Assembly (NCBI GenBank): GCA_030156385.1
Contig: JASGMR010000006.1
Location: forward strand, 1-48,561
DNA from: Kosmotogales bacterium
Lineage (GTDB): Bacteria; Thermotogota; Thermotogae; Petrotogales; Kosmotogaceae
Reading direction: 5' to 3'
DNA: 48,561 nt
The first letter of the stretch is position 1; the number at the start of each line of letters is the position of its first letter. Below, piece by piece: positions 10,470 through 21,770 of the stretch. Below the pieces are notes generated by a model. The model searched no databases. It was given only the letters and a program-made list of their open reading frames with translations, and was not told the DNA's origin. The position numbers and the translations under genes are program-made.

Positions 10470-11078
10470 CTATTCAGTTGGAAACATTTGTTGGACAACT
10501 TGCATAAAATCAAGGGTCTCATCGATGTAAGTTATAGGAACACCGAGCTCCTGCGCCATATTTGTGAACTTCCCATCACTGTCTCCGTCTTTTTTGACTA
10601 TTATATAGTCCGCAAATGGAATTATAGCATCGATCGATCTTTCATCTGCACTTCCGGTTTTTCCCCTTCTGGCATCTCCTTCGATCTGAGCTGCAATTAT
10701 TGTCATTCCCAATTTCTTGGCTTCTTCAATCATAAGATTCAATCTCTTTATTTCATCGTCGATTGTAATTCCGGAGGCTCCCAGTCCCTTTGCCGAAGAA
10801 CCTATTATTACAAAGAGTATTTCGTAATCCTTCTTAGTAAGATCCGTTGAATCCTCCTTCAATGGCTCTGCATTGTAATCAAAATCAGTGGGCAACAATG
10901 CTTTGGATTGAAACATGAGCAACCTGGCCATTTTACCACCTGGGCCCTGTCCTGCATTAGTCAACAAAAATGGTGTTTCACCCTTTATAGGTGCATCACC
11001 TGTGACAGCAGCCAGCACAAAGGTATTGAATACCATCAAAATAGCAACAAAAAAAAGCAAAACTTTTAAAGATCTCAT
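10470..11078 (-). CDS. Small secreted protein, possible binding component (DUF6305-like)
   Basis: The 202-residue product has a clear signal peptide (cleavage after about residue 23, VLA-AVTG). The mature part looks like a compact alpha/beta fold: GQGPGGKMARLLMF, then ILFVIIGSSAKGLGASGI, then MTIIAAQIEGDARRGK. I think it resembles DUF6305-type proteins but cannot confirm this. It is the first gene of the operon, ahead of the TRAP-like permease, and so may capture the substrate outside the membrane. The ATG follows AGGAGGGG. Confidence 0.6.
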   Translation of the reverse strand: MRSLKVLLFFVAILMVFNTFVLAAVTGDAPIKGETPFLLTNAGQGPGGKMARLLMFQSKALLPTDFDYNAEPLKEDSTDLTKKDYEILFVIIGSSAKGLGASGITIDDEIKRLNLMIEEAKKLGMTIIAAQIEGDARRGKTGSADERSIDAIIPFADYIIVKKDGDSDGKFTNMAQELGVPITYIDETLDFMQVVQQMFPTE

Positions 11079-11304: not shown

Positions 11305-11347
11305 TGACTTGAGTCACTATTGATTTTTTTTCAAATGGTGGTATAAT
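11305..11347 (+). promoter_or_regulatory. Promoter of the micropeptide array, with upstream inverted repeat
   Basis: A -35-like TTGATT (11320-11325) and a perfect TATAAT (11342-11347) are 16 bases apart, predicting a start near 11354. The inverted repeat TGACT-TG-AGTCA (11305-11316) lies immediately upstream of the -35 element and could be an activator or repressor site. Confidence 0.65.
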
Positions 11348-11382
11348 ACTTTTGAATTTTTGAGAAAGCGAGGTGTGCATGA

Positions 11383-11478
11383 ATGATTTTAAGATTTAGA
11401 ACCATCGTAAAAGTTGATAATGTTGCAGGGATGAGTGTGCCACGTCGCATCTTGTACGAACGTATGGTGATGATTTGA
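11383..11478 (+). CDS. 31-residue leader ORF before the terminator
   Basis: The ATG is 7 bases after GAGGTG, the same spacing as the later micro-genes, and the ORF ends 24 bases before an intrinsic terminator. The product is basic and hydrophobic with the segment GMSVPRRILYERM; it lacks the C-terminal motif of the downstream peptides. It is therefore best read as an attenuation leader or a distinct peptide. A competing ATG at 11379 opens only six codons. Confidence 0.45.
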   Translation: MILRFRTIVKVDNVAGMSVPRRILYERMVMI

Positions 11479-11538
11479 GAGTGATCTCTTTTACATATAT
11501 AGCGACCGTGGCGTAGACCACGGTCGTTTTTTTTTGGA
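11401..11538 (+). terminator. Structured leader with intrinsic terminator (attenuator candidate)
   Basis: CGACCGTGG (11503-11511) and CCACGGTCG (11518-11526) form a perfect 9-bp stem with loop CGTAGA, followed by nine T residues. Upstream, ACCATCGT (11401-11408) can pair with ACGTATGGT (11460-11468), enclosing a smaller GATG/CATC hairpin. The ribosome binding site GGAGG of the first micropeptide gene starts at the base after the T-tract. Transcription must pass this terminator, or start after it, to express the array. Confidence 0.75.
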
Positions 11539-11548
11539 GGTAAGAATT

Positions 11549-11668
11549 ATGTTATTTGAAGACAAAATCATCAACAAGTCGAAGCAGGAGAAGGAGAGTT
11601 CAGAGAAGTCGAAAAAAGTCAACAAACCAGATTCTTTTCAGTATCATGTGAAAAAGATAATACTGTAA
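11549..11668 (+). CDS. Micropeptide 1 of the SDF-x-x-Y array (39 aa)
   Basis: GGAGG lies 8 bases before the ATG. The N-terminal two-thirds is very lysine- and glutamate-rich; the tail DSFQYHVKKIIL aligns without gaps with the last 12 residues of the micropeptides at 11857 and 12008 (D-[FS]-[LF]-x-Y-[NH]-x-[QK]-[KR]). It is the most divergent member. There is no signal peptide, no double-glycine leader and no cysteine. Function unknown; the conserved tail suggests recognition by a shared partner such as the downstream exporter. Confidence 0.6.
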   Translation: MLFEDKIINKSKQEKESSEKSKKVNKPDSFQYHVKKIIL

Positions 11669-11694
11669 GAATCCATGGCGAAGGAGGTAAAAAA

Positions 11695-11852
11695 ATGACA
11701 AAAAAGAGAACGGGTATTTTGAAAATGTGAACGTCAGAGTTGTATACAAGGAATCCGCAGTGTTGATGTTTATGACGGTAGGCGCTCTGTTCCAAAGCGG
11801 GTCGGAAAACATCAGATTATCAATATTTATTATCACAGATCTGGGGAGGTAA
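11695..11852 (+). pseudogene. Possible frameshifted member of the micropeptide array
   Basis: AAGGAGG is 7 bases before an ATG, but the frame stops after 11 codons (at 11730). At codons 2-4 the sequence A-AAA-AAG (11700-11706) is a classic -1 slippery heptamer. A -1 shift there opens a 52-residue product ending at 11852, five bases before the next ATG and inside its ribosome binding site. The shifted product does not carry the shared motif. In a third frame, bases 11812-11838 resemble the motif-coding DNA (S-D-Y-x5-Q). It could be a decayed copy, a sequencing error or a real frameshift gene. Confidence 0.35.
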
Positions 11853-11856
11853 GTTT

Positions 11857-11979
11857 ATGTTTGATACAAACAAAAAAAGCTACAAAGGAAAGATGAGTGT
11901 AAACAAAATTATAAAAGAGGCAAGGGTTGAAATAGTGAGTGATTTTCTACCCTATAACATTCAGAAAATAGATTTATAG
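11857..11979 (+). CDS. Micropeptide 2 of the SDF-x-x-Y array (40 aa)
   Basis: The ATG lies 7 bases after GGGGAGG. The product has a lysine-rich front and ends in the motif SDFLPYNIQKIDL. The S-D-F-L-x-Y-N-x-Q-[KR] core is shared with the next micropeptide, whereas the first 25 residues are unrelated to it. No membrane helix or signal peptide is seen, so export would need a dedicated machine. It is part of a tandem array read in the same direction as the ABC exporter at 12334. Confidence 0.7.
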   Translation: MFDTNKKSYKGKMSVNKIIKEARVEIVSDFLPYNIQKIDL

Positions 11980-12007
11980 AAATCGATTAAATAAAGGAGG
12001 AATTTTT

Positions 12008-12130
12008 ATGTCTTTAAAAAATAAAAACAAAAAAAGAAGAAGAGATTTAAGGTATTTGGATTTGAGTAAAGCAAAAGCAGATGCTGTCTCAGATTTTCTC
12101 TCTTACAACAATCAGAGATTCAAGATATGA
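12008..12130 (+). CDS. Micropeptide 3 of the SDF-x-x-Y array (40 aa)
   Basis: AAAGGAGG is 7 bases from the ATG. The first 13 residues are extremely basic (KNKNKKRRR), and the tail is SDFLSYNNQRFKI, nearly the same as micropeptide 2. Both peptides have exactly 40 residues with the motif starting at residue 28. The basic front might bind nucleic acid, membrane or a transporter; this is inference only. Confidence 0.7.
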   Translation: MSLKNKNKKRRRDLRYLDLSKAKADAVSDFLSYNNQRFKI

Positions 12131-12165
12131 GCGAGGAAGTCTGAAACATATTCGGGGGTGAAGAA

Positions 12166-12303
12166 ATGTTATCTGCAGGAAAAAGAGGATTCAGAAACAC
12201 TATCAACGAAAAACGCGGAGAATGTTCGGGATTATGTAATGCGGAGTCGATAATCATCTCAGATTTTACCCTTTACCAGGAACAGAGGGTAAAATTCGAA
12301 TAA
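12166..12303 (+). CDS. Micropeptide 4 of the SDF-x-x-Y array (45 aa, two cysteines)
   Basis: GGGGG lies 7 bases before the ATG. The tail ISDFTLYQEQRVKFE keeps S-D-F-x-x-Y-x-x-Q-R. This copy differs in having two cysteines four residues apart (C-S-G-L-C, residues 20-24), which could form a disulfide or bind metal. It ends 30 bases before the ATPase gene start, supporting one transcription unit. Confidence 0.7.
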   Translation: MLSAGKRGFRNTINEKRGECSGLCNAESIIISDFTLYQEQRVKFE

Positions 12304-12333: not shown

Positions 12334-13140
12334 ATGGCAATTGCCATTCACGCGAAAAATATAGTTAAGAAATTTAAGAAGAACAAAAAAATCGTCACGG
12401 CCTTAAAAGGTATAGACATCGATATTTACGAAGGTGAAATATACGGATTACTGGGGCCCAACGGTTCAGGCAAATCTACATTCATAAGAATTGCTTCCAC
12501 ATTGCTTTTTCCTGATGAAGGCGAGATCGAGATCTTCGATCATGATGTGAGGAAACACCCGAAATATGTACAGGAAATAATGAACAGAGTTTCGGTAGAG
12601 GCCAGTTTCTTCAGAAAGTTATCCGCTTATGAAAATCTGTTTTACTCTGCGGGTATTCACGGAATAAGTAAAAAAGAAGCTTTTAATAAGATAGAAAGTT
12701 TGATAGATAAAGTCGGTCTGGACAGGAAGAGACTCAAAGATCCCCTTGAGGACTTTTCAAGGGGGATGCAACAAAAAGTTGCAATAGCGAGGGCATTCAT
12801 GACCGACCCAAAAATATTGTTGCTCGACGAACCGACAACAGGATTGGATCCCAGAGCGAAAAAGGATGTTCAGAAATTAATCCTCGATCTGAGAGCCAGA
12901 ACGAAGGCAACTATTTTACTGACGACTCACGATATGAATGAAGCAGAAAAACTGTGCGACCGGGTTTCAATAATTCATAACGGAAGAATAATGATAACCG
13001 GTCACCCGCAGGAATTAAAAAGAAAGCTGGTGAATAAAATATCCAATCCGACATTCGAAGATGTATTCATAGAATTCACCGGCTTGTCTTTTGAGGATGC
13101 TGAATACGGAAAAAGTTCCAAGGAGGTTGTATCCGCATGA
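12334..13140 (+). CDS. ABC exporter ATP-binding protein
   Basis: The 268-residue ATPase has Walker A GPNGSGKST (41-49), the signature variant FSRGMQQ (141-147), Walker B ILLLDEP (161-167) and switch histidine in TTHD (197-200). This is the CcmA/DrrA-type architecture of ABC-2 exporters. The ATG at 12334 follows GGAGGTG; an in-frame GTG at 12325 lies within that site and is rejected. The stop overlaps the start of the permease gene (ATGA), so the two are co-translated. Position after four micropeptide genes suggests it exports them or protects against them. Confidence 0.9.
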   Translation: MAIAIHAKNIVKKFKKNKKIVTALKGIDIDIYEGEIYGLLGPNGSGKSTFIRIASTLLFPDEGEIEIFDHDVRKHPKYVQEIMNRVSVEASFFRKLSAYENLFYSAGIHGISKKEAFNKIESLIDKVGLDRKRLKDPLEDFSRGMQQKVAIARAFMTDPKILLLDEPTTGLDPRAKKDVQKLILDLRARTKATILLTTHDMNEAEKLCDRVSIIHNGRIMITGHPQELKRKLVNKISNPTFEDVFIEFTGLSFEDAEYGKSSKEVVSA

Positions 13141-13967
13141 GTGTAAAACCTTTGGCCAGAGAGTTGAGAGCTTCTCTGGCTTTTATAGAAAGAAATTTCA
13201 ATCTCACGAAGAGATATTGGAAATGGGAAGTGGTTTTTTTCTTATATACAATAGCCAATTCTATAACCATGGGATTCATCGGAAAGGGAGTAGAAGCCTT
13301 TTCAGGAACGCCTGTTGATACGAATTATCTGATACTTTACATGCTTATCGGTTCAATTTTGTGGGGGTATCTTTCTATACTCTTCGAAATAGTAGCCGAA
13401 ACTGTCGCGTGGGAAAGATGGGAAGAAACCATTGAATATACATTCATGGCCCCGGTGAGAAGATCGACTCATCTTCTGAGCACCTGTGGATATGCCATTT
13501 TATACGGACTTTTAAGAAGTGTGGTTATACTTGGAATAGTGTCCTTCTTCTTCGATCTGAATCTGGCTGGGGCAAATTTCATTTCGGCCGTAGGTATTCT
13601 TTTCGTCGCCAGTTTCTCTTTTATAGGGCTTGGAGTTGTAGCAGCCATACTGCCACTCATTTCCCCGGAAAAGGGCGTTCAGGTCGTTCATATATTTCAG
13701 GCGCTGTTGCTCATGTTTTCGGGTGTCTATTATGAAATTGACGTACTGCCTGTATGGATGCAGAACGTTGCAAAACTATCACCCGCAACGTATGCTCTCA
13801 GAGGAATGCGGGCCTCAATTCTGGAAGGGCAGAATTTTTCCAGCCAATGGAGCAATATATGGCCTCTCATTTTAATGGGAGCGGTTTTGTTGCCTGCAGG
13901 TCTGAAAATCTTTTCTATAATGGAAAAATGGGCAAAAAGAAAGGGTGTCTTAAAAAGAAGTGGTTAA
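13137..13967 (+). CDS. ABC-2 type permease
   Basis: The 276-residue protein has six predicted membrane helices and the ABC-2 pattern: a cytoplasmic ATPase-contact region (WERWEETIEYTFMAPVRR, about residues 87-105) and the late SGVYYEIDVLPVWMQNVAKLSPATYALRGMR segment. Such permeases export drugs, polysaccharides, lipids or peptides. With the ATPase encoded by the overlapping upstream gene it forms a two-component exporter. No peptidase domain is present, so cleavage of exported peptides would need another enzyme. Confidence 0.85.
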   Translation: MSVKPLARELRASLAFIERNFNLTKRYWKWEVVFFLYTIANSITMGFIGKGVEAFSGTPVDTNYLILYMLIGSILWGYLSILFEIVAETVAWERWEETIEYTFMAPVRRSTHLLSTCGYAILYGLLRSVVILGIVSFFFDLNLAGANFISAVGILFVASFSFIGLGVVAAILPLISPEKGVQVVHIFQALLLMFSGVYYEIDVLPVWMQNVAKLSPATYALRGMRASILEGQNFSSQWSNIWPLILMGAVLLPAGLKIFSIMEKWAKRKGVLKRSG

Positions 13968-13984
13968 TAACCGCTTCTTTTTTT
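13954..13984 (+). terminator. Terminator at the end of the exporter operon
   Basis: AAAGAAGTGGTTA pairs with TAACCGCTTCTTT and runs into a T-tract (to 13984). The permease stop codon sits within the stem. ABC-F expression therefore needs readthrough or a separate promoter. Confidence 0.7.
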
Positions 13985-14009: not shown

Positions 14010-15824
14010 ATGTTACTTACTATGGAAAAAATTGGACACGATTACGGAAACGGTTTTCTTTTTGAAAATGTTTCTTCCTCACTATATAAAAAGGACAAAA
14101 TAGTACTTATAGGAAAAAATGGAAGTGGTAAAACCACTCTTCTGAAAATTTTATCCGGAAAACTCGAACAGTCGGAGGGATCACTTTATGTTTCTTCCAA
14201 CCTAAAGATAGGCTATCAGACACAGGAAAGAATTAAAAATATGGATCAAAAACTTTTCGATTACTATATGGAAAGTATAAATCTGGTTTTAAAGGATACC
14301 GAAGAGTATTACAGTTTTGAGAGAAGGGTAAGATCAATTCTCACCGGTCTGGAATTCCCCGAAAAAACATGGGAAAGAAAGATCTCCAGTTTCTCGGGAG
14401 GCGAGATAACGAGAATTTCACTCGGAAAATTACTTCTCGTGGACTATGATCTGTTAATACTGGACGAACCCACCAATCACCTCGATATAGAATCGGTTCA
14501 ATGGTTACTGAACTTCATAAAAAATTACAACGGGGCCGTGATCCTCGTTACTCATGACAGATACCTGCTGAGAAAAGTCGGAAATCGTTTCTGGGAATTG
14601 AACTCGGGTTCACTCTGGGACTTTAAAGGTGATTTCGAACTTTACAGAAAAGAAAGAGAAGTGCTCCTGAAAAGTGGTTTGAGACAGAGAGCGAATATGG
14701 AAAAGGAAATAGATAGATTGACCGCCATCGCAAAAAGATACAGAATATGGGGAGAAGATAAATTCATCAAGCAGGCGAAAAGCAAGGAAAGACAGGCAGA
14801 AAAATTAAAAACGCAGATGAATGAAATAAATCTGCCGGATGAAGAAATAAAAGAACAAAAAATCTCCATACCCGAACCCAGCAGAACGGGTTATGTGGTT
14901 CTCAGCATAGAAGATTTATCGTACAATTACGGCGATAAAAAAATATTTAAAAAAGTTCATCTCGAACTCAACAGAAGAGAAAAACTTTCGATTCTGGGAA
15001 TAAACGGAAGCGGTAAAACCACCCTTTTAAACCTGATCACCGATAACATTCCAAGAAAAACCGGAGAAATACAATGGGGATACAATGTCAAATGGAAGTA
15101 TCTATCCCAGTTAAAGGAAGATTTGAACAGAGATAACGATGTTCTCAAAGAAATCTGGAAAATTAAACCCTACTGGCCGGATTTTGAAATCAGAAAATAT
15201 ATAGGAAGATTCGGATTTACAGGAGACGATGTTTTCAAAAACGTGGGCGAGTTGAGCGGAGGAGAAAAAACAAGACTGGCCTTGAGCAAAGTAATACTTC
15301 AGGCGCCCAATGTCCTGATAATGGACGAGCCCACAAACAACCTTGATATCTGGACTATCGAAAGTCTTGAAAAAGTCTTGAAAGAATTCAAGGGTGCCAT
15401 TATTCTGGTTTCCCATGACAGGGATTTCGTCGAGAATATCTGTGATAAATACGTTCTTATAGAAAATCAAAAACTGAAAAAGATCGGGTCACTGGATTAC
15501 TATCTGAAACACATCTTCGACAACAACGAAACGAAAAAAGAGGAAAGCGAATCCAAAATCTCATATAAAGAAAGAAAAAAGATGCAGAACAGGTATAAAT
15601 CGATAATAAGAAAAATAGAAGAACTGACAGAATCTTCAACCGAACTGGAGATGGAGCTCGAAATACTTAATAAAAAAATGTTCACCTTCGGTTCCGATTA
15701 CGAAAAAATAGAGCAGTTTAATAAAACAAAAAAAGAAAAGGAAGAAAAAGTTATCTTCCAGCTCGAGGAAATAGAAAATCTAAAACAGGAAAAGATAGTT
15801 ATAGAAAGCAGTCTGGATGACTGA
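14010..15824 (+). CDS. ABC-F family ATPase (Uup-like)
   Basis: The 604-residue protein has two ABC domains and no membrane segment: Walker A GKNGSGKT (35-42) and GINGSGKT, signatures FSGGE and LSGGE, and Walker B LLILDEPTNHLD and LIMDEPTNNLD. The linker between domains is charged and helical, and the C-terminal 100 residues form a charged coiled coil as in Uup. ABC-F proteins act on the ribosome in translation control or antibiotic protection. It starts 25 bases after the exporter terminator and could protect the cell if the micropeptides act on ribosomes, but it may simply be a housekeeping factor. Confidence 0.85.
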   Translation: MLLTMEKIGHDYGNGFLFENVSSSLYKKDKIVLIGKNGSGKTTLLKILSGKLEQSEGSLYVSSNLKIGYQTQERIKNMDQKLFDYYMESINLVLKDTEEYYSFERRVRSILTGLEFPEKTWERKISSFSGGEITRISLGKLLLVDYDLLILDEPTNHLDIESVQWLLNFIKNYNGAVILVTHDRYLLRKVGNRFWELNSGSLWDFKGDFELYRKEREVLLKSGLRQRANMEKEIDRLTAIAKRYRIWGEDKFIKQAKSKERQAEKLKTQMNEINLPDEEIKEQKISIPEPSRTGYVVLSIEDLSYNYGDKKIFKKVHLELNRREKLSILGINGSGKTTLLNLITDNIPRKTGEIQWGYNVKWKYLSQLKEDLNRDNDVLKEIWKIKPYWPDFEIRKYIGRFGFTGDDVFKNVGELSGGEKTRLALSKVILQAPNVLIMDEPTNNLDIWTIESLEKVLKEFKGAIILVSHDRDFVENICDKYVLIENQKLKKIGSLDYYLKHIFDNNETKKEESESKISYKERKKMQNRYKSIIRKIEELTESSTELEMELEILNKKMFTFGSDYEKIEQFNKTKKEKEEKVIFQLEEIENLKQEKIVIESSLDD

Positions 15825-15841: not shown

Positions 15842-16795
15842 TTAATTCAATTCGATATAGGCAGCTCCGATATAAGTGTCCGCAGCTCCGTAATAGACAT
15901 ACAATCTGTTATTTATTATCGCCGCACCTTCAATAAAAACGACGTTCGGTACCTGTCCGTATTTTTCCCAGCTGAATTCCGGTTCAATCAGGAAATCTTC
16001 CGTTCTTTTTACGAGTTTTCCCGGATTTCTTATGTCGAAGAGAGCGGCACCGGCTCTATAGATTTTTGAATAATCCGCACTGTTGTATATCAGCAAAATC
16101 CCTTCATCAGTGATCAAAGGAGTCGGACCTGGCTCAACGAGCGCGGAATCAAAATTGATTATCCTTTTTTCCAGAACGGGTGTCAATGAAATTTTCCAAT
16201 CCGTTAAATTCTCCGAAGTAGCCAGGTATATATTGGTATCACCGTAGTACATGTAGTATTTTCCATTTATTTTCTCCGGAACAACTGCTCCGGATTTGGT
16301 CCAGGATTCTCCCTTGAAAACCGGTCCAAGTTTTTCCCAGTTTATTAAATCATCGGAAATAGCCAGACAAAGTCTGGCTACCTTTCCGTCATATCCAGTG
16401 TAGGTCAGGACGAATTTGTCTTCGATCTTCACTATTCTCGGATCTTCACATCCACCGGGAATCTCATAATCTTCGGTCGGAAAAATCACCGGATTGGGCC
16501 TCTTCTCGAAATTGATCCCATCGCTGCTCACCGCCAGACCTATCGAAGATGTTCCATTCCATTTATTTTCACCTTCCCAATTCTCCGCCCTGTAAAAAAG
16601 ATAGAATTTGCCGTTCTCTTCAATGATCGTCGGATTGAAAACCGCTTTGCACTCAAACCCTATGCCCTCAGGCATCAAGATGGGTTCATTTGAAACCCTG
16701 ATAAATTTTTTCATTTTATCGAAATCTATTGAAATTGCGAAGGCTAGAGAACTCAAAAAAACTATCAAAAATAGAATTATTAACTTTCTGCCCAT
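15842..16795 (-). CDS. Secreted GH130-family enzyme
   Basis: The protein (317 residues) has a signal peptide (about residues 1-20) followed by a five-bladed propeller of GH130 type: FNPTIIEENGKFYLFYRAE, GGCEDPRIVKIEDKFVLTYTG and SGAVVPEKINGKYYMYYGD. GH130 enzymes phosphorolyse or hydrolyse beta-mannosides. Its cytoplasmic relative is encoded just upstream; their genes overlap by 16 bases. A secreted GH130 cannot easily use cytoplasmic phosphate chemistry, so a hydrolase is the likelier role. The ATG follows AGAGG. Confidence 0.8.
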   Translation of the reverse strand: MGRKLIILFLIVFLSSLAFAISIDFDKMKKFIRVSNEPILMPEGIGFECKAVFNPTIIEENGKFYLFYRAENWEGENKWNGTSSIGLAVSSDGINFEKRPNPVIFPTEDYEIPGGCEDPRIVKIEDKFVLTYTGYDGKVARLCLAISDDLINWEKLGPVFKGESWTKSGAVVPEKINGKYYMYYGDTNIYLATSENLTDWKISLTPVLEKRIINFDSALVEPGPTPLITDEGILLIYNSADYSKIYRAGAALFDIRNPGKLVKRTEDFLIEPEFSWEKYGQVPNVVFIEGAAIINNRLYVYYGAADTYIGAAYIELN

Positions 16796-17664
16796 TTTTT
16801 TACCTCTTGAGTTTCTATCGTCGCCAGAGCGATATGATTGTCGGCGGCACCATAATATACATAAAATTGTTCATCGTGCTCGACAATGGCATCGGAAAAG
16901 ACAACCGTCGGAACTCCTCCAAACACTTCCCATTCTTCCTTAGGTTCCAGAACCGGACCTTCCGTTCTTTTCAATACTTTGCCCGGATCATCTTTATCAA
17001 GTACCATAAATCCCAATCTGTACGTGAGCCTGGGACCCTTTTCCACTCCATGATAAAGAACCAGCCATCCGTATTCCTTCTTTATCGGGGATCCTGCTAT
17101 TCCTATTTTCTCATTATCCCAATACCCTTCGCGCGGTGAAGCGATCTTTCTGTAATCACCCCAGTGAATTAAATCATCTGAAAAGGCCAGCCAAAGATCG
17201 GGCTCCAATCTATGAAACATCACATATTTTCCGTTTGTTTTTTCAGGGAAAAGCGCTGCATCTTTATTCGGCGATTCGGGTATTATTATTCCGTCCCTCT
17301 CCCAAATGATAAAATTTTTGGTGTGGGCCTGAGCGATTCTTATACTTCCCGGGGCATATGCGGTATATTGAATATAATACTCATCATTCATTTTCGTTAT
17401 TCTCGGATCTTCAACACCGTATAACTCGTCTCTGTTCGCCGGTGAAAAAACGGGTTTTTCAAGTCTGTTAAAGTGGATCCCATCTGAACTGACCGCATAA
17501 CCAAATCTCGATACCATATCCTCTCCCTGCGCTCTGTACAACATATGGAACAAACCGTTATCTTTTATCACGGCGGGATTAAACACATACTTATTTTCCC
17601 AGCTGTGATTGAATACTGGTGATAATAAAGGGTTTAAAGGATGTCTTCTAAGTTTGAGTTCCAT
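16780..17664 (-). CDS. Cytoplasmic GH130 beta-mannoside phosphorylase or hydrolase
   Basis: This 294-residue protein has no signal peptide. GH130 signatures are plain: FNPAVIKDNGLFHMLYRAQGED, YGVEDPRITKMNDEYYIQYTAY and KDAALFPEKTNGKYVMFHR. Family members degrade beta-1,4-mannobiose, mannosyl-GlcNAc and mannooligosaccharides. It follows two sugar permeases, so it probably processes the imported oligosaccharide. The start is clear (TAGGAGG before the ATG). Whether phosphate is used cannot be decided from the sequence alone. Confidence 0.8.
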   Translation of the reverse strand: MELKLRRHPLNPLLSPVFNHSWENKYVFNPAVIKDNGLFHMLYRAQGEDMVSRFGYAVSSDGIHFNRLEKPVFSPANRDELYGVEDPRITKMNDEYYIQYTAYAPGSIRIAQAHTKNFIIWERDGIIIPESPNKDAALFPEKTNGKYVMFHRLEPDLWLAFSDDLIHWGDYRKIASPREGYWDNEKIGIAGSPIKKEYGWLVLYHGVEKGPRLTYRLGFMVLDKDDPGKVLKRTEGPVLEPKEEWEVFGGVPTVVFSDAIVEHDEQFYVYYGAADNHIALATIETQEVKKWAES

Positions 17665-17684: not shown

Positions 17685-18509
17685 TTATTTTAATGAAACC
17701 GATATTCCTTTAAGGAAATACTTTCTGAAAATCAAAAACAATAATACCATGGGTATAGTCTGTATAACCGATCCTGCCAGAAGTGGTCCTATATAACTGG
17801 CGTACTCGTGATTGAAACTTGCCAGCAAAACGGAAAGCGGCATTTTATCATAGTCCTGTATGACGATCAAAGGCCATAGGAAATTATCCCAGATTCCGAT
17901 AAATGTGAACAATCCCACAATACTGGCGGTGGATCTTACGAGAGGAAACATTATCTTCATTATTATTTTCCACTCGCTTGCCCCTTCTATTCTTGCGGAT
18001 TCGATATAGGCATCCGGCAGGGCCCTTAAACTCTGGGCAAACATGAAGGCACCCCAGGCACCAAAAAGACTCGGAACAATCAATCCGGCAAGACTGTTGT
18101 ACATTCCAAGATTCTTAATGACTATGTATAAAGGTAAAATAAACATGAATCCCGGAAACAACATCTGAAAAATGGTGAAATGGTTTAAAAATCTGCCGCC
18201 CCTGAATTTAATTTTTGATATGGCATAACCGACAAATGCCGAGGTTACTATTACGCTGAAAGTCACCACTACGGAGATAAACATACTATTTCCCAACGCT
18301 CTCAGAAAAGGCCTCTCCATCTTCTCGGCGGAACTGAATATGAATTCATAGTGTTCCAATGTCAGCGATGAGGGAATAACAGTCGTATATATTTCATTCT
18401 GGGGCTTGAAACTCGAAAGTACAAGCCATATATAAGGATAAAGCCAGATCAGTGCAATTCCCAGCATTAATATTTCAAATATCCAGATTCCAACTTTACC
18501 TTTCTTCAT
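17685..18509 (-). CDS. Sugar ABC transporter permease (MalG type)
   Basis: This 274-residue inner-membrane protein has six helices and the EAA loop (IEGASEWKIIMKIMFPLVR) that contacts the ATPase. It belongs to the CUT1 carbohydrate uptake family. It overlaps the upstream permease gene by four bases. No ATPase gene is in this operon, so a shared MsmK/UgpC-type ATPase encoded elsewhere is expected. Confidence 0.85.
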   Translation of the reverse strand: MKKGKVGIWIFEILMLGIALIWLYPYIWLVLSSFKPQNEIYTTVIPSSLTLEHYEFIFSSAEKMERPFLRALGNSMFISVVVTFSVIVTSAFVGYAISKIKFRGGRFLNHFTIFQMLFPGFMFILPLYIVIKNLGMYNSLAGLIVPSLFGAWGAFMFAQSLRALPDAYIESARIEGASEWKIIMKIMFPLVRSTASIVGLFTFIGIWDNFLWPLIVIQDYDKMPLSVLLASFNHEYASYIGPLLAGSVIQTIPMVLLFLIFRKYFLKGISVSLK

Positions 18510-19447
18510 GTTAAATCCACCTTTCTTTCAATAATCTTTCTGACGAGGAAAATACAGCTGAAACTTATCGCAGCGGTTATAACACTTATCGTTGCTGCAT
18601 AACCCGGACCGGTCCTTGTGAAGGTTCTGAAAGCATTATCATATATGAACATCATGAAAGTGTATGTTCTCTTCATAGGGCCACCACCAGTAATCATATA
18701 CGGTTCGGTGAATATACCGAAGGTCAGTGTTATCTGCATTACCAAAACCATAACGAGAGCAGGATTTATAAGGGGAAGAGTTATTTTGAAAAACTGTGTC
18801 CTCTTAGTGGCGCCGTCCAGCTTTGCCGCCTCATAAAGATTCTTTGGAACGGCACCTATTCCCGCCAGTAATATCAATCCGTAATAACCTATGAATTTCC
18901 ATGAAATCATCAAAGCAATACTCAAAATTGCGAGTTGGGGTTCCTTGAACCAAGGTATCGTTATTCCAAATAAATTATACAAAATTTTATTTATTGGACC
19001 GTTCTCTGCGAGTATTTTTTGAAATACTATTGAATAACCGACCCCCGAAGATACGTTCGCTACAAGAAAGGACAATGCGACCACCGTTCTGAAGTACTTC
19101 AGTTTATTCAACGCCAGAGCGAGGAGAATTGCCCCGATCATTGAAATCGGTATGAAATATGCCATCATGTTGAATGTATTTCCCAACACCAGCCAAAAAG
19201 TGTCGTCTGTGAATAAATTTACAAAGTTTTTCAATCCATAGAATTTAGCGGGAGACAGGTAATTCCATTTAACGAACATGAGGTAAATAAGCCACCCAAG
19301 TGGTATTCCAAAAAATATCCCCTGATGCACAATATAAGGCGAGATCAATAACCATCCTTTACTCGCTTGTTTTCTATGAAGTTTTCCCAATGAGTAATTA
19401 AGATTACTAACTTCTTCTCGCTTCCGATTAAAAAATTTCATAAACAC
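18506..19447 (-). CDS. Sugar ABC transporter permease (MalF type)
   Basis: The 313-residue CUT1 permease has an N-terminal cytoplasmic extension and six helices. The EAA motif reads KLDGATKRTQFFKITLPLI. It pairs with the MalG-type permease encoded immediately downstream. It follows the binding-protein gene after a hairpin that may lower its expression relative to that gene. Confidence 0.85.
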   Translation of the reverse strand: MFMKFFNRKREEVSNLNYSLGKLHRKQASKGWLLISPYIVHQGIFFGIPLGWLIYLMFVKWNYLSPAKFYGLKNFVNLFTDDTFWLVLGNTFNMMAYFIPISMIGAILLALALNKLKYFRTVVALSFLVANVSSGVGYSIVFQKILAENGPINKILYNLFGITIPWFKEPQLAILSIALMISWKFIGYYGLILLAGIGAVPKNLYEAAKLDGATKRTQFFKITLPLINPALVMVLVMQITLTFGIFTEPYMITGGGPMKRTYTFMMFIYDNAFRTFTRTGPGYAATISVITAAISFSCIFLVRKIIERKVDLT

Positions 19448-19453
19448 TCCTCA

Positions 19454-19489
19454 ATAAAAAGGAGGAAAGAGCATTAAAACTCTTTCCTC
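19454..19489 (-). terminator. Hairpin/partial terminator between binding protein and permeases
   Basis: GAGGAAAGAG (19462-19471) and CTCTTTCCTC (19480-19489) form a perfect 10-bp stem, followed in the minus direction by CTTTTTT. It lies between the stop of the binding-protein gene and the first permease gene, as expected for an element that keeps the binding protein in excess. Confidence 0.75.
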
Positions 19490-19498
19490 AAATATTTT

Positions 19499-20770
19499 TT
19501 AGAACAATTCTTTGTTTATTTCATTGACTGTTCTATCTACGGCATCTTTGGCGGTTTCTTTTTGAAGTGATAACGGTTCGATCAAGTATTGAGTCATCAA
19601 ATCCTGTATTTCAGTTGTAAAAGTTGTCAGCGCCGGCGGAACAGCATAAGGAACATACTCGGCATATGCCTTCAATCCTGTGTTGTTTTCAAAAATAGAC
19701 GCAAACAATTCATTCGTTGTTAAATCATCTCTTACCGGAGGAAGATTGGTCAATTCCAACCATTTTTTGTCGTGTTCCGGATCAGAATATACCCACTTTA
19801 CAAATTCCCAGATTTTATCCTTGTCTTTAGCAAAATTGAACAAAACCATTCCCTTCGTATCGGCAAAAGTTTTAATCGGCTTATCGGCAGGATAGCTATC
19901 CGGCACAGGTGGAGTGCTGAAAACTATGTGTTCCGGGTAAACATCCGGAAAAACACTGGCAGCCGTAGGCATATCCCAGGGACCATTTATCTGACCTACA
20001 ACAGCTCCAAGATACAAAGCGTTATCAATCATAGATATGGCATCATAATCTTTATCAAACAATTCTTCTATAAAATTTGCAACCTCATAACCTATCGCAT
20101 CTCCACTGGAACCTTCCACTTTGTTGAAAAGACATTTGTTATTCTGAACATCAAAATACGGTGCTCCATCGCCTGCTGCGTAATAATGAGTGATGAAATC
20201 GTACCATCTGTCCCACCAGTTTTTACCCTTAATAAATGCATAAGCGTATCTTTCCTTTGGAATCGCCACTTTCTCTCCAAGGGCCAGAACTTCACTGTAA
20301 GTTCTCGGTGGATTATCGAAACCGGCTTCTTTTAAAATATCACTTCTCCACCAGACGAGCATGGGATTCGAATAAATAGGAATTACATATGAATTTCCAC
20401 CGAATTCCCATCCTTTAATAGCCTCAACCATTCCTCTCTTTTCCAATAATTCCTCATATCCATCGAAATCATTCCATGGTACCAGAACACCGGCTTCAAT
20501 CAATTGTGCTGCGAATCCACTGAAAATATTCGTACAGAGATCAGGACCTTCTCCTGAAGCTATTGCTGTCAGTATAGCTTCTTCGGAACTTCCCGTTGCA
20601 GGAATTACTTTCCATTTGATCTGTGCATCGGGATTGTTTGCATTCCATTCTTCAACCATTCCTTTCCAAAATTCCTCCTGTTGAGGATTTGGAGCCGTCC
20701 AGAAATTAATCGTTCCAAAAGTAAAACTGATAGTTAATAAAATAACAAGAACAACTAAAAGCTTTTTCAT
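19499..20770 (-). CDS. Sugar-binding protein of the GH130-linked ABC transporter
   Basis: The 423-residue family 1 extracellular solute-binding protein has a signal peptide (residues 1-18), the typical LLEAIASGEGPDL-like stretch (AILTAIASGEGPDLCTN) and aromatic residues throughout the pocket. There is no lipobox cysteine at the cleavage site. It captures an oligosaccharide outside the membrane; beta-manno-oligosaccharide is inferred from the GH130 genes. It lies 22 bases after the LacI-type gene. Confidence 0.85.
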   Translation of the reverse strand: MKKLLVVLVILLTISFTFGTINFWTAPNPQQEEFWKGMVEEWNANNPDAQIKWKVIPATGSSEEAILTAIASGEGPDLCTNIFSGFAAQLIEAGVLVPWNDFDGYEELLEKRGMVEAIKGWEFGGNSYVIPIYSNPMLVWWRSDILKEAGFDNPPRTYSEVLALGEKVAIPKERYAYAFIKGKNWWDRWYDFITHYYAAGDGAPYFDVQNNKCLFNKVEGSSGDAIGYEVANFIEELFDKDYDAISMIDNALYLGAVVGQINGPWDMPTAASVFPDVYPEHIVFSTPPVPDSYPADKPIKTFADTKGMVLFNFAKDKDKIWEFVKWVYSDPEHDKKWLELTNLPPVRDDLTTNELFASIFENNTGLKAYAEYVPYAVPPALTTFTTEIQDLMTQYLIEPLSLQKETAKDAVDRTVNEINKELF

Positions 20771-20792
20771 ATATATACCTCCCTTTTGAGTT

Positions 20793-21770
20793 TCAGATAC
20801 TGCTCCCCCTCTTTATGAATTCGGTGAATATATAAGTTTTAACGGGATGAGTATCCTCCTTTATAAGTAAATTGAATAACCTTTTTGCGGCTATATCACC
20901 CATTTCATATTTAAAAATCTTGAATGTGGTCAGCTCAGGTTCTTCGATTGAAGCGCTTAAAATGTCATCAAAACCGATAACGGAAATCTCTTCGGGAACT
21001 TTTATCTTCCTCTTTTTCAAAGACAAGATCACTCTTCTTGCTGCGGTATCGTTACAGCAGAAGAAAGCCTGAGGTTTCCTTATTTCGGCAAATGCTTTAT
21101 CTAAAATTTCATCGGTGTTATCACTCTGTTCATTGAATTCGTAGCATTTTGGAAAATATCCAAGTTCTTCCATAGCGGAAGAATATCCTTCATACCTATC
21201 CTTAAAGCCGGTGTGAGCCAACGGTCCCCTTATGTGATATATCCTTCTTATTCCCCTTTCGTAAAGGTATCTCACCGCATATACACCAGCATCGAACCCG
21301 TCTGTCAGAATGAAATCCACCTTTAAAGACGGTAAATACTGATCCACAACGACTATGGGTTTGTTGAAAAATCGAATATTCTGAACATCCTTTTCTGTGA
21401 TCTCTCCTCCGATCAGGATATAACCGTCATATCCCTTTATATCGTCTCCGATTTTTTTTATATCCAGATTCATATTGTTGTTACTACAATAATCCTGAAT
21501 ACCTTTGAGAATAACGGTATAAAATTCGTCCGGTTCCTGAGTGATAGATTTATATGTTAAATTCCCTCCAATAACCACACAGTTGAAAGAATTTCTTTTA
21601 CTCGCGAGATACGAGGCCACCTGGCTCGGTTTATAACCCACTTCTTCTATCGCTCTCAGGACTTTTTTTCTGGTTTTTTCAGAAACATAACCCGATTTGT
21701 TTATTATTCTGGATACTGTGGAAATCGACACTCCGGCTATCTTTGCAACATCGGCGATTTTTTTACTCAC
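20793..21770 (-). CDS. LacI-family transcriptional regulator
   Basis: The 325-residue protein has the LacI helix-turn-helix at the N-terminus (IADVAKIAGVSISTVSRIIN), a hinge-helix region (PSQVASYLAS), and a periplasmic-binding-protein-like sugar domain. It is the first gene of the minus-strand operon it probably controls. Two matching operators lie in the divergent gap, one overlapping its own start site, indicating autoregulation and control of the secreted-protein genes. Confidence 0.9.
   Translation of the reverse strand: MSKKIADVAKIAGVSISTVSRIINKSGYVSEKTRKKVLRAIEEVGYKPSQVASYLASKRNSFNCVVIGGNLTYKSITQEPDEFYTVILKGIQDYCSNNNMNLDIKKIGDDIKGYDGYILIGGEITEKDVQNIRFFNKPIVVVDQYLPSLKVDFILTDGFDAGVYAVRYLYERGIRRIYHIRGPLAHTGFKDRYEGYSSAMEELGYFPKCYEFNEQSDNTDEILDKAFAEIRKPQAFFCCNDTAARRVILSLKKRKIKVPEEISVIGFDDILSASIEEPELTTFKIFKYEMGDIAAKRLFNLLIKEDTHPVKTYIFTEFIKRGSSI

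Follow-up and report, generated by a model that had tools for sequence, protein, structure and literature searches.

Tandem short peptide genes behind a predicted ribosome-mediated attenuator in the leader of a Kosmotogaceae ABC exporter operon

Introduction

To our knowledge, leader peptides that sense antibiotics have been described chiefly in Gram-positive and enteric bacteria. The macrolide efflux/ABC-F operon mefA-msrD has two leaders, MefAL (MTASMRLR) and MsrDL, and, like the locus described here, it combines an efflux pump beside an ABC-F gene, a short leader ORF with Arg-x-Arg and an intrinsic terminator that forms depending on the ribosome (PMC10314930). Arg-x-Arg/Lys is the macrolide stalling motif and is found in MefAL (PMC10314930) and in ErmDL (PMC6238534). 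In the bmrB-bmrCD system of Bacillus subtilis, an ABC multidrug exporter is likewise under ribosome-mediated transcription attenuation by way of a translated leader ORF (PMC4191407). The leader of the macrolide-inducible ermB gene contains two short ORFs, ermBL and ermBL2 (PMC8274638). TnaC (PMC10941005), SecM, MifM and their relatives (PMC7897499) resemble the peptides considered below in that a short peptide gene lies 5' of the regulated gene and the critical conserved residues are C-terminal, with variation elsewhere. A literature search on tandem or multiple leader peptides found no array of the kind reported here, and a search for Mesotoga together with leader peptides found no paper.

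The locus lies in a 48,561-nt stretch of DNA from Kosmotogales bacterium (Kosmotogaceae), hereafter the window, which is contig 39 of a 138-contig, 2.3 Mb genome; the genus of the window is represented by this one genome. An initial annotation of the window had described a tandem array of short ORFs upstream of an ABC exporter, and the array, its 5' leader and the orthologous loci were analyzed computationally.

Results

Organization of the exporter operon and its leader

The features of the locus are given in Table 1. The four short ORFs of 39, 40, 40 and 45 codons described in the initial annotation were confirmed, each preceded by a purine-rich Shine-Dalgarno (SD) sequence about 7-8 nt 5' of the ATG, as was the ABC-2 exporter downstream of them. 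Elements beyond those originally listed were an additional ORF at 11695-11730 and, at 11320-11535, a promoter, a leader ORF and a strong intrinsic terminator. The operon looks like an antibiotic-inducible efflux operon of the kind represented by mefA-msrD and bmrBCD.

Table 1. Predicted features of the exporter locus (window coordinates).
Feature	Coordinates	Strand	Description
Sigma-70 type promoter	11320..11347	+	TTGATT-16-TATAAT, extended -10
Attenuator leader ORF	11383..11478	+	31 aa, MILRFRTIVKVDNVAGMSVPRRILYERMVMI; has SD; R-F-R stall-type motif at residues 4-6
Antiterminator arm	11437..11449	+	GUGCCACGUCGCA, within leader ORF; 11 bp pairing with terminator 5' arm
Intrinsic terminator (attenuator)	11501..11535	+	AGCGACCGTGG-CGTAGA-CCACGGTCGTT followed by T run
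Array ORF 1	11549..11668	+	39 aa, basic; SD GGAGG; tail match to other copies at chance level
Additional array ORF	11695..11730	+	11 aa, MTKKRTGILKM; SD AGGAGG
Array ORF 2	11857..11979	+	40 aa; SD GGAGG; tail SDFLPYNIQKIDL
Array ORF 3	12008..12130	+	40 aa; SD AGGAGG; tail SDFLSYNNQRFKI
Array ORF 4	12166..12303	+	45 aa; SD GGGGG; tail SDFTLYQEQRVKFE
ABC exporter ATPase, DrrA-like	12334..13140	+
ABC-2 permease, DrrB-like	13137..13967	+	overlaps ATPase stop
ABC-F ATPase, ribosome-protection-like type	14010..15824	+	NF000355, 400.9 bits, cut-off 380

By score, the ABC-F ATPase falls above the cut-off of the NCBIfam ribosomal protection-like family, and a role in resistance is predicted. Its gene adjoins the exporter genes in several genera: in the window and in five other genomes (G001, G002, G003, G005 and G006). 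It lies 17-18 kb from the exporter in four genomes of genus g5 (G004, G010, G012 and G014) and far off in G009; where it is separate in g5, inspection of the two loci with the correct orientation (L100 and L102) revealed no attenuator of its own. In the window, co-transcription with the exporter is uncertain because of a terminator-like site at 13952-13982, and the ABC-F gene is perhaps expressed from its own transcript. In one further orthologous locus (L048, genome G001) the permease coding sequence is divided between two frames, contains three in-frame stops and looks broken or mis-assembled.

Two neighboring regions of the window were also noted. A gene for a DUF6305 protein (10470-11078, - strand) lies divergently upstream of the leader promoter and was not found in the corresponding stretch of the relatives. 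Two adjoining GH130 phosphorylases (15842-17664 and 17685-21770, - strand) are located beside ABC importer-like genes, likely as a manno-oligosaccharide cluster.

A conserved attenuator precedes the exporter genes

The order promoter, leader ORF, terminator was also found 5' of orthologous exporters (permease 54-81% identical), with a TATAAT-like box at the equivalent relative position. A terminator 5' of the ATPase gene was identified in the window and at 20 orthologous loci (19 by script and L041 by eye), and the leader ORF was mostly 26-37 codons long. In the window, the 5' arm of the terminator pairs with the terminal part of the leader ORF. When the partner of this arm was sought in the 170 nt upstream at 21 loci, including the window, the best duplex partner lay 27-51 nt upstream of the terminator and inside a short SD-preceded ORF in 21/21. 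The antiterminator duplex of the window (-18.9 kcal/mol) was equalled by 5/200 shuffles, and since such single-locus counts varied from 0/200 to 43/200, the case for an attenuator rests on the constant place of the partner and the co-variation of the arms.

The antiterminator and terminator arms change together. GCCACG-UCGC pairs with GCGA-C-CGUGGC in the window and GCCACG-CCUUC with GAAGG-AC-CGUGGC in g5; quite different arms occur in other families and in Caldisericota, such as GUCCACGGCC with GGCCGUGGAU in genome G041, UUCAUCGCUCU with AGGGCUGUGAA at locus L060 and GGUCGC with GCGACC at the Caldisericota locus L055. In g5, the final 12 codons of the leader ORF had both low pS (0.07) and low pN (0.10), which indicates that this end of the ORF is kept as RNA. 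An Rfam search gave no match. A terminator, an SD-preceded leader ORF that covers the antiterminator arm, and co-varying, mutually exclusive pairing were thus all found, three features expected of a ribosome-mediated attenuator; induction by a ribosome-stalling drug or metabolite would be a fourth. Judged by these features, the locus falls among the ribosome-mediated attenuators that control resistance operons such as bmrBCD (PMC4191407) and mefA-msrD (PMC10314930).

Two further groups of loci were observed. Exporter orthologs with 45-50% identity occur in Chloroflexota (L061, L066, L067 and L070) with a terminator 170-310 nt before the ATPase gene, and at two of them, L066 and L070, there is also a short leader ORF with Arg-x-Arg that ends in ..CPS; attenuation of the exporter may predate Thermotogota. 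At L116 (genome G066) and L117 (genome G068), which carry orthologous exporters, neither a terminator/attenuator nor an array was found, which suggests that the regulation was lost.

Leader peptides are enriched in a stalling-type motif

The leader peptide of the window starts MILRFRT. Those of g5 start MTIRTRV, MIIRMRV, MLIRFRV, MVRRFRI and MMMRLKT, those of g3 MIFRNRM and MIFRSRM, and others VFKHRQL and MRWRINA. In a test devised after the data were seen, Arg/Lys-x-Arg/Lys was present in residues 2-8 of 11/21 leaders against 6% of 127 background ORFs, and the stricter Arg-x-Arg/Lys in 10/21 against 1.6%; by lineage, the former was present in 5/11 (p about 3e-4) and the latter was likewise enriched (p about 2e-5). 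The enrichment of Arg-x-Arg/Lys hints at macrolide-type drugs as the inducer. Lys/Arg-x-Lys/Arg was absent from residues 2-8 of the other 10/21 leaders, and because these ten leaders lack the motif, the class of the inducing drug is only a guess.

The window array and its shared tail

The initial annotation had reported a common C-terminal pattern, S-D-F-x-x-Y-x-x-Q-[KR], followed by a hydrophobic residue, in all four ORFs and more loosely in the first. The pattern is exact in copies 2, 3 and 4 and is beyond shuffled expectation: the tail scores of pairs 2-3 and 3-4 were equalled by 0/5000 shuffles each and that of pair 2-4 by 12/5000. Copy 1 stood at chance, its scores against the other copies being matched by 1846, 3564 and 3952 of 5000 shuffles. 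The stretch common to copies 2-4 is longer than had been claimed, at about 18 residues ([EKN]-A-x-x-x-x-[VI]-S-D-F-x-x-Y-x-x-Q-[KR]). The 2.3 Mb genome holds five matches to the DNA pattern for D-F-x-x-Y-x-x-Q-[KR]: array copies 2-4, one match in a different short frame of contig 32, and one on the reverse strand of contig 48.

Among copies 2-4, the 18 tail codons gave pS of 0.54-0.84 and pN of 0.30-0.50, but in the final 12 codons of that stretch copies 3 and 4 gave pS of 0.21 and pN of 0.36. Protein-level constraint on the window's own tails therefore appears weaker than in the related families described below. Array ORF 1 is separated from array ORF 2 by a long gap (11695-11856), which opens with the MTKKRTGILKM ORF and in which a decayed member of the array may lie.

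Constant tails recur in unrelated array peptides of related genomes

SD-preceded short ORFs between the terminator and the ATPase gene number five in the window, three each in g5 and g3, and two in g2; in g4 the array is reduced to a remnant. Two Caldisericota genomes (loci L055 and L058) have two unrelated short ORFs each in this position. No array peptides were found at L042-L044, L046, L047, L060 and L115, where the terminator stands directly 5' of the ATPase gene. The SDF tail, for which a search in relatives had been proposed in the initial annotation, was not found there; the relatives have unrelated positional counterparts only, several of them with constant tails of their own.

The third array peptide of g5, designated peptide C (e.g. 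MKKIYRGSREIFIDGIVERQKVEIESKFSRPHYL), is present in one copy in 8/8 g5 genomes with the exporter and in 0/2 without it, the g5 sequences being related and not independent. Much of its length is conserved, with conservative K/R, D/E and I/V/L changes, and its dN/dS is about 0.06-0.12 in pairs at a distance where dS could be estimated. Counted from the stop codon, amino acid identity in peptide C falls from 88% in the last 12 codons to 61% in the next 12 and 47% in the rest. The fall is steeper in family A2 (92%, with pS 0.90 and pN 0.03, then 17% and 22%), K2 (83%, 0% and 20%) and K3 (67%, 8% and 38%). Tail pS in A2, C, K2 and K3 was 0.65-0.98. The K2 and K3 tails overlap the next SD, which partly explains their constancy. 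The C-termini of families A1, A3, B and K1 were not constant.

Constant C-terminal residues near the stop codon, apparently under protein-level constraint, are accordingly a property of A2, C, K2, K3 and window copies 2-4. The heads are basic, with 26% K+R in the first 20 residues compared with 13%. The combination of a constant tail and a variable basic head noted in the initial annotation is thus real, and peptides of unrelated sequence in the equivalent position of related genomes show it too. The comparison of synonymous and nonsynonymous changes that it had proposed bore out protein-level constraint in the related-genome families, where synonymous sites are near saturation and amino acid changes few, and gave a weaker signal among the window copies.

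F-x(1,2)-P-x(0,2)-[YF] occurred within the last 15 residues of 5/18 unrelated peptides, against 0.09 expected and never five in 5000 shuffles, the pattern having been picked after looking at the same families. The five matches are DFLPY, VFGPY, KFSRPHY, NFRPF and SFIYPIY. We treat the pattern as a lead only.

Homology between peptide C and one of the two K3 peptides was supported (0/2000). Homology of the window tails to peptide C was considered and rejected, as some pairwise scores were strong, profile comparison reached p of only about 0.02-0.05, and profile-profile comparison returned nothing. A PDB match of peptide C (4jiw, 15 residues, E 7e-5) was taken as chance. No notable family match to the array peptides was found in Pfam, NCBIfam, PHROGs or PADLOC.

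Discussion

Proposed regulation of the exporter operon

The anatomy of the leader strongly supports a first stage of attenuation by a stalled ribosome, which we regard as very probable, with induction as its prediction. RNA polymerase would start near 11350 and then meet the terminator. Full translation of the leader ORF would place the ribosome over the antiterminator arm, so that the terminator forms and transcription stops. If instead a drug halts the ribosome around the N-terminal Arg-x-Arg, the antiterminator arm, which lies about 40 nt downstream, would remain free to pair with the terminator 5' arm, and transcription would continue into the array and the exporter genes.

The array itself we read as a set of tandem cis-acting nascent-chain peptides that form a second regulatory layer in the 5' leader of an antibiotic-inducible exporter operon, a proposal that we consider evenly poised. 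The tandem ORFs would be transcribed only after the first stage has opened. While still within the ribosome, at or close to the stop codon, their constant C-terminal residues would exert the effect and the head would serve as a spacer that fills the tunnel; slowed or arrested termination would tune exporter translation or message stability. This reading fits best because the stop-adjacent residues are constant, the basic head is free to vary and no fold is evident; it is also favored by the lineage-specific replacement of the peptides and by their residence only in a ribosome-controlled leader. More tentatively, the leader might give the exporter a second, multi-step ribosome check, made up of as many as four or five distinct, fast-replaced arrest peptides in series behind a drug-responsive attenuator, with peptide tails that converge near the stop on F-x(1,2)-P-x-[YF].

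Two specific routes were considered and found no support. A cascade of translational attenuation by SD sequestration is not supported for the inner ORFs of the array, whose SDs are no more hidden in structure than in synonymous variants and are open in the window. TnaC-like masking of a Rho site likewise lacks support, since the leader is C-poor (9-19% C) and contains no Rho-like C-rich stretch. The SD of the ATPase gene has low accessibility in the window and g5 (unpaired 0.09-0.19), though the difference from synonymous variants is not significant.

Alternative explanations of the array

A serious rival is that the array peptides are small trans-acting proteins co-induced with the exporter, with binding partners such as the ribosome or one of the exporter proteins (ATPase or permease). 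Conservation of peptide C extends past the tail, every g5 genome that has the exporter also has this peptide, the array SDs are strong and mostly open, and AlphaFold modelled peptide C as one helix (residues 6-29). However, the models are low-confidence single helices, one per peptide (mean pLDDT 64 and 70), the strongest conservation is C-terminal in several unrelated families, and lineages swap in unrelated peptides or have none while the permease is still 70-80% identical. Trans action is possible on these grounds, if doubtful. The initial annotation had favored a signalling, toxin-like or defence role for exported peptides, with recognition of their constant tail by the ABC-2 exporter or a receptor, and both the position of the peptide genes directly 5' of the exporter and the constancy of the tails under protein-level selection, with freely evolving heads, would suit such a role. 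Against it, orthologous exporters in other Thermotogota families keep the attenuator without the peptides, which shows that the exporter does not need them, and by its anatomy the attenuator would respond to ribosome stalling, as in resistance genes. As the initial annotation had also observed, the scanned neighbors and ORFs held no double-glycine leader or modification enzyme; nor was any signal peptide, maturation enzyme, receptor, immunity gene or family match found among them. Export is unlikely, and it is the least favored of the three functional readings because the exporter lives without the peptides in many lineages.

If instead the short ORFs merely held ribosomes on a long leader, through re-initiation or mRNA protection, their sequence would be irrelevant. 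The last ORF does stop 12-14 nt before the ATPase start, or overlaps it, in g5, g2 and g3, leader-gene re-initiation has been proposed as a booster (PMC4833913), and array peptides are unrelated between lineages; yet in the window the last stop lies 30 nt 5' of the ATPase start, and peptide C and the tails of A2 and K2 combine nearly saturated synonymous sites with a dN/dS far below 1, which leaves this explanation quite improbable. Least probable is that RNA hairpins at the ORF ends gave rise to the shared tail as a by-product. This origin was prompted by the tails of copies 1 and 4, which fold more stably than synonymous variants (ranks 8/1000 and 24/1000), but copies 2 and 3 are ordinary (687 and 221 of 1000 synonymous variants) and the tail Ser is encoded by AGT in copy 2 and by TCA in the other two copies with the shared tail. 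It was rejected on 29 ORF ends from 11 genomes, which had no general RNA-structure signal (mean rank 0.41, KS p 0.18); because the tails lack such a signal, it is the array peptide itself that appears to be kept.

Significance and comparison with known systems

An antibiotic-type attenuator has been traced here through Thermotogota and Caldisericota, with a hint in Chloroflexota. In Kosmotogaceae, tandem unannotated peptide genes stand behind it, several under strong protein-level selection and swapped between genera. If the array peptides, which we compare with TnaC, SecM and MifM by anatomy and without sequence similarity, do arrest ribosomes, they would constitute a natural collection of new tunnel-active sequences, and serial control of this kind would be without precedent in the literature searched.

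Judged from sequence, the array is a new variant among ribosome-mediated attenuators, with a predicted function. In contrast to mefA-msrD (PMC10314930), the pump here is of the ABC-2 (DrrAB-like) type, the length of the leader ORF falls mostly in the range given above, and induction is predicted; in Kosmotogaceae, 2-5 more short ORFs lie beyond the terminator, and for some of them protein-level selection is clear. The bmrB-bmrCD system (PMC4191407) has a single leader ORF, no tandem peptide array and a different exporter. Regulation of ermB (PMC8274638) is by translational attenuation of a methyltransferase, and its two ORFs do not form a common-tail series. TnaC, SecM and MifM occur as single copies, whereas the peptide genes of the Kosmotogaceae leader are arranged in arrays.
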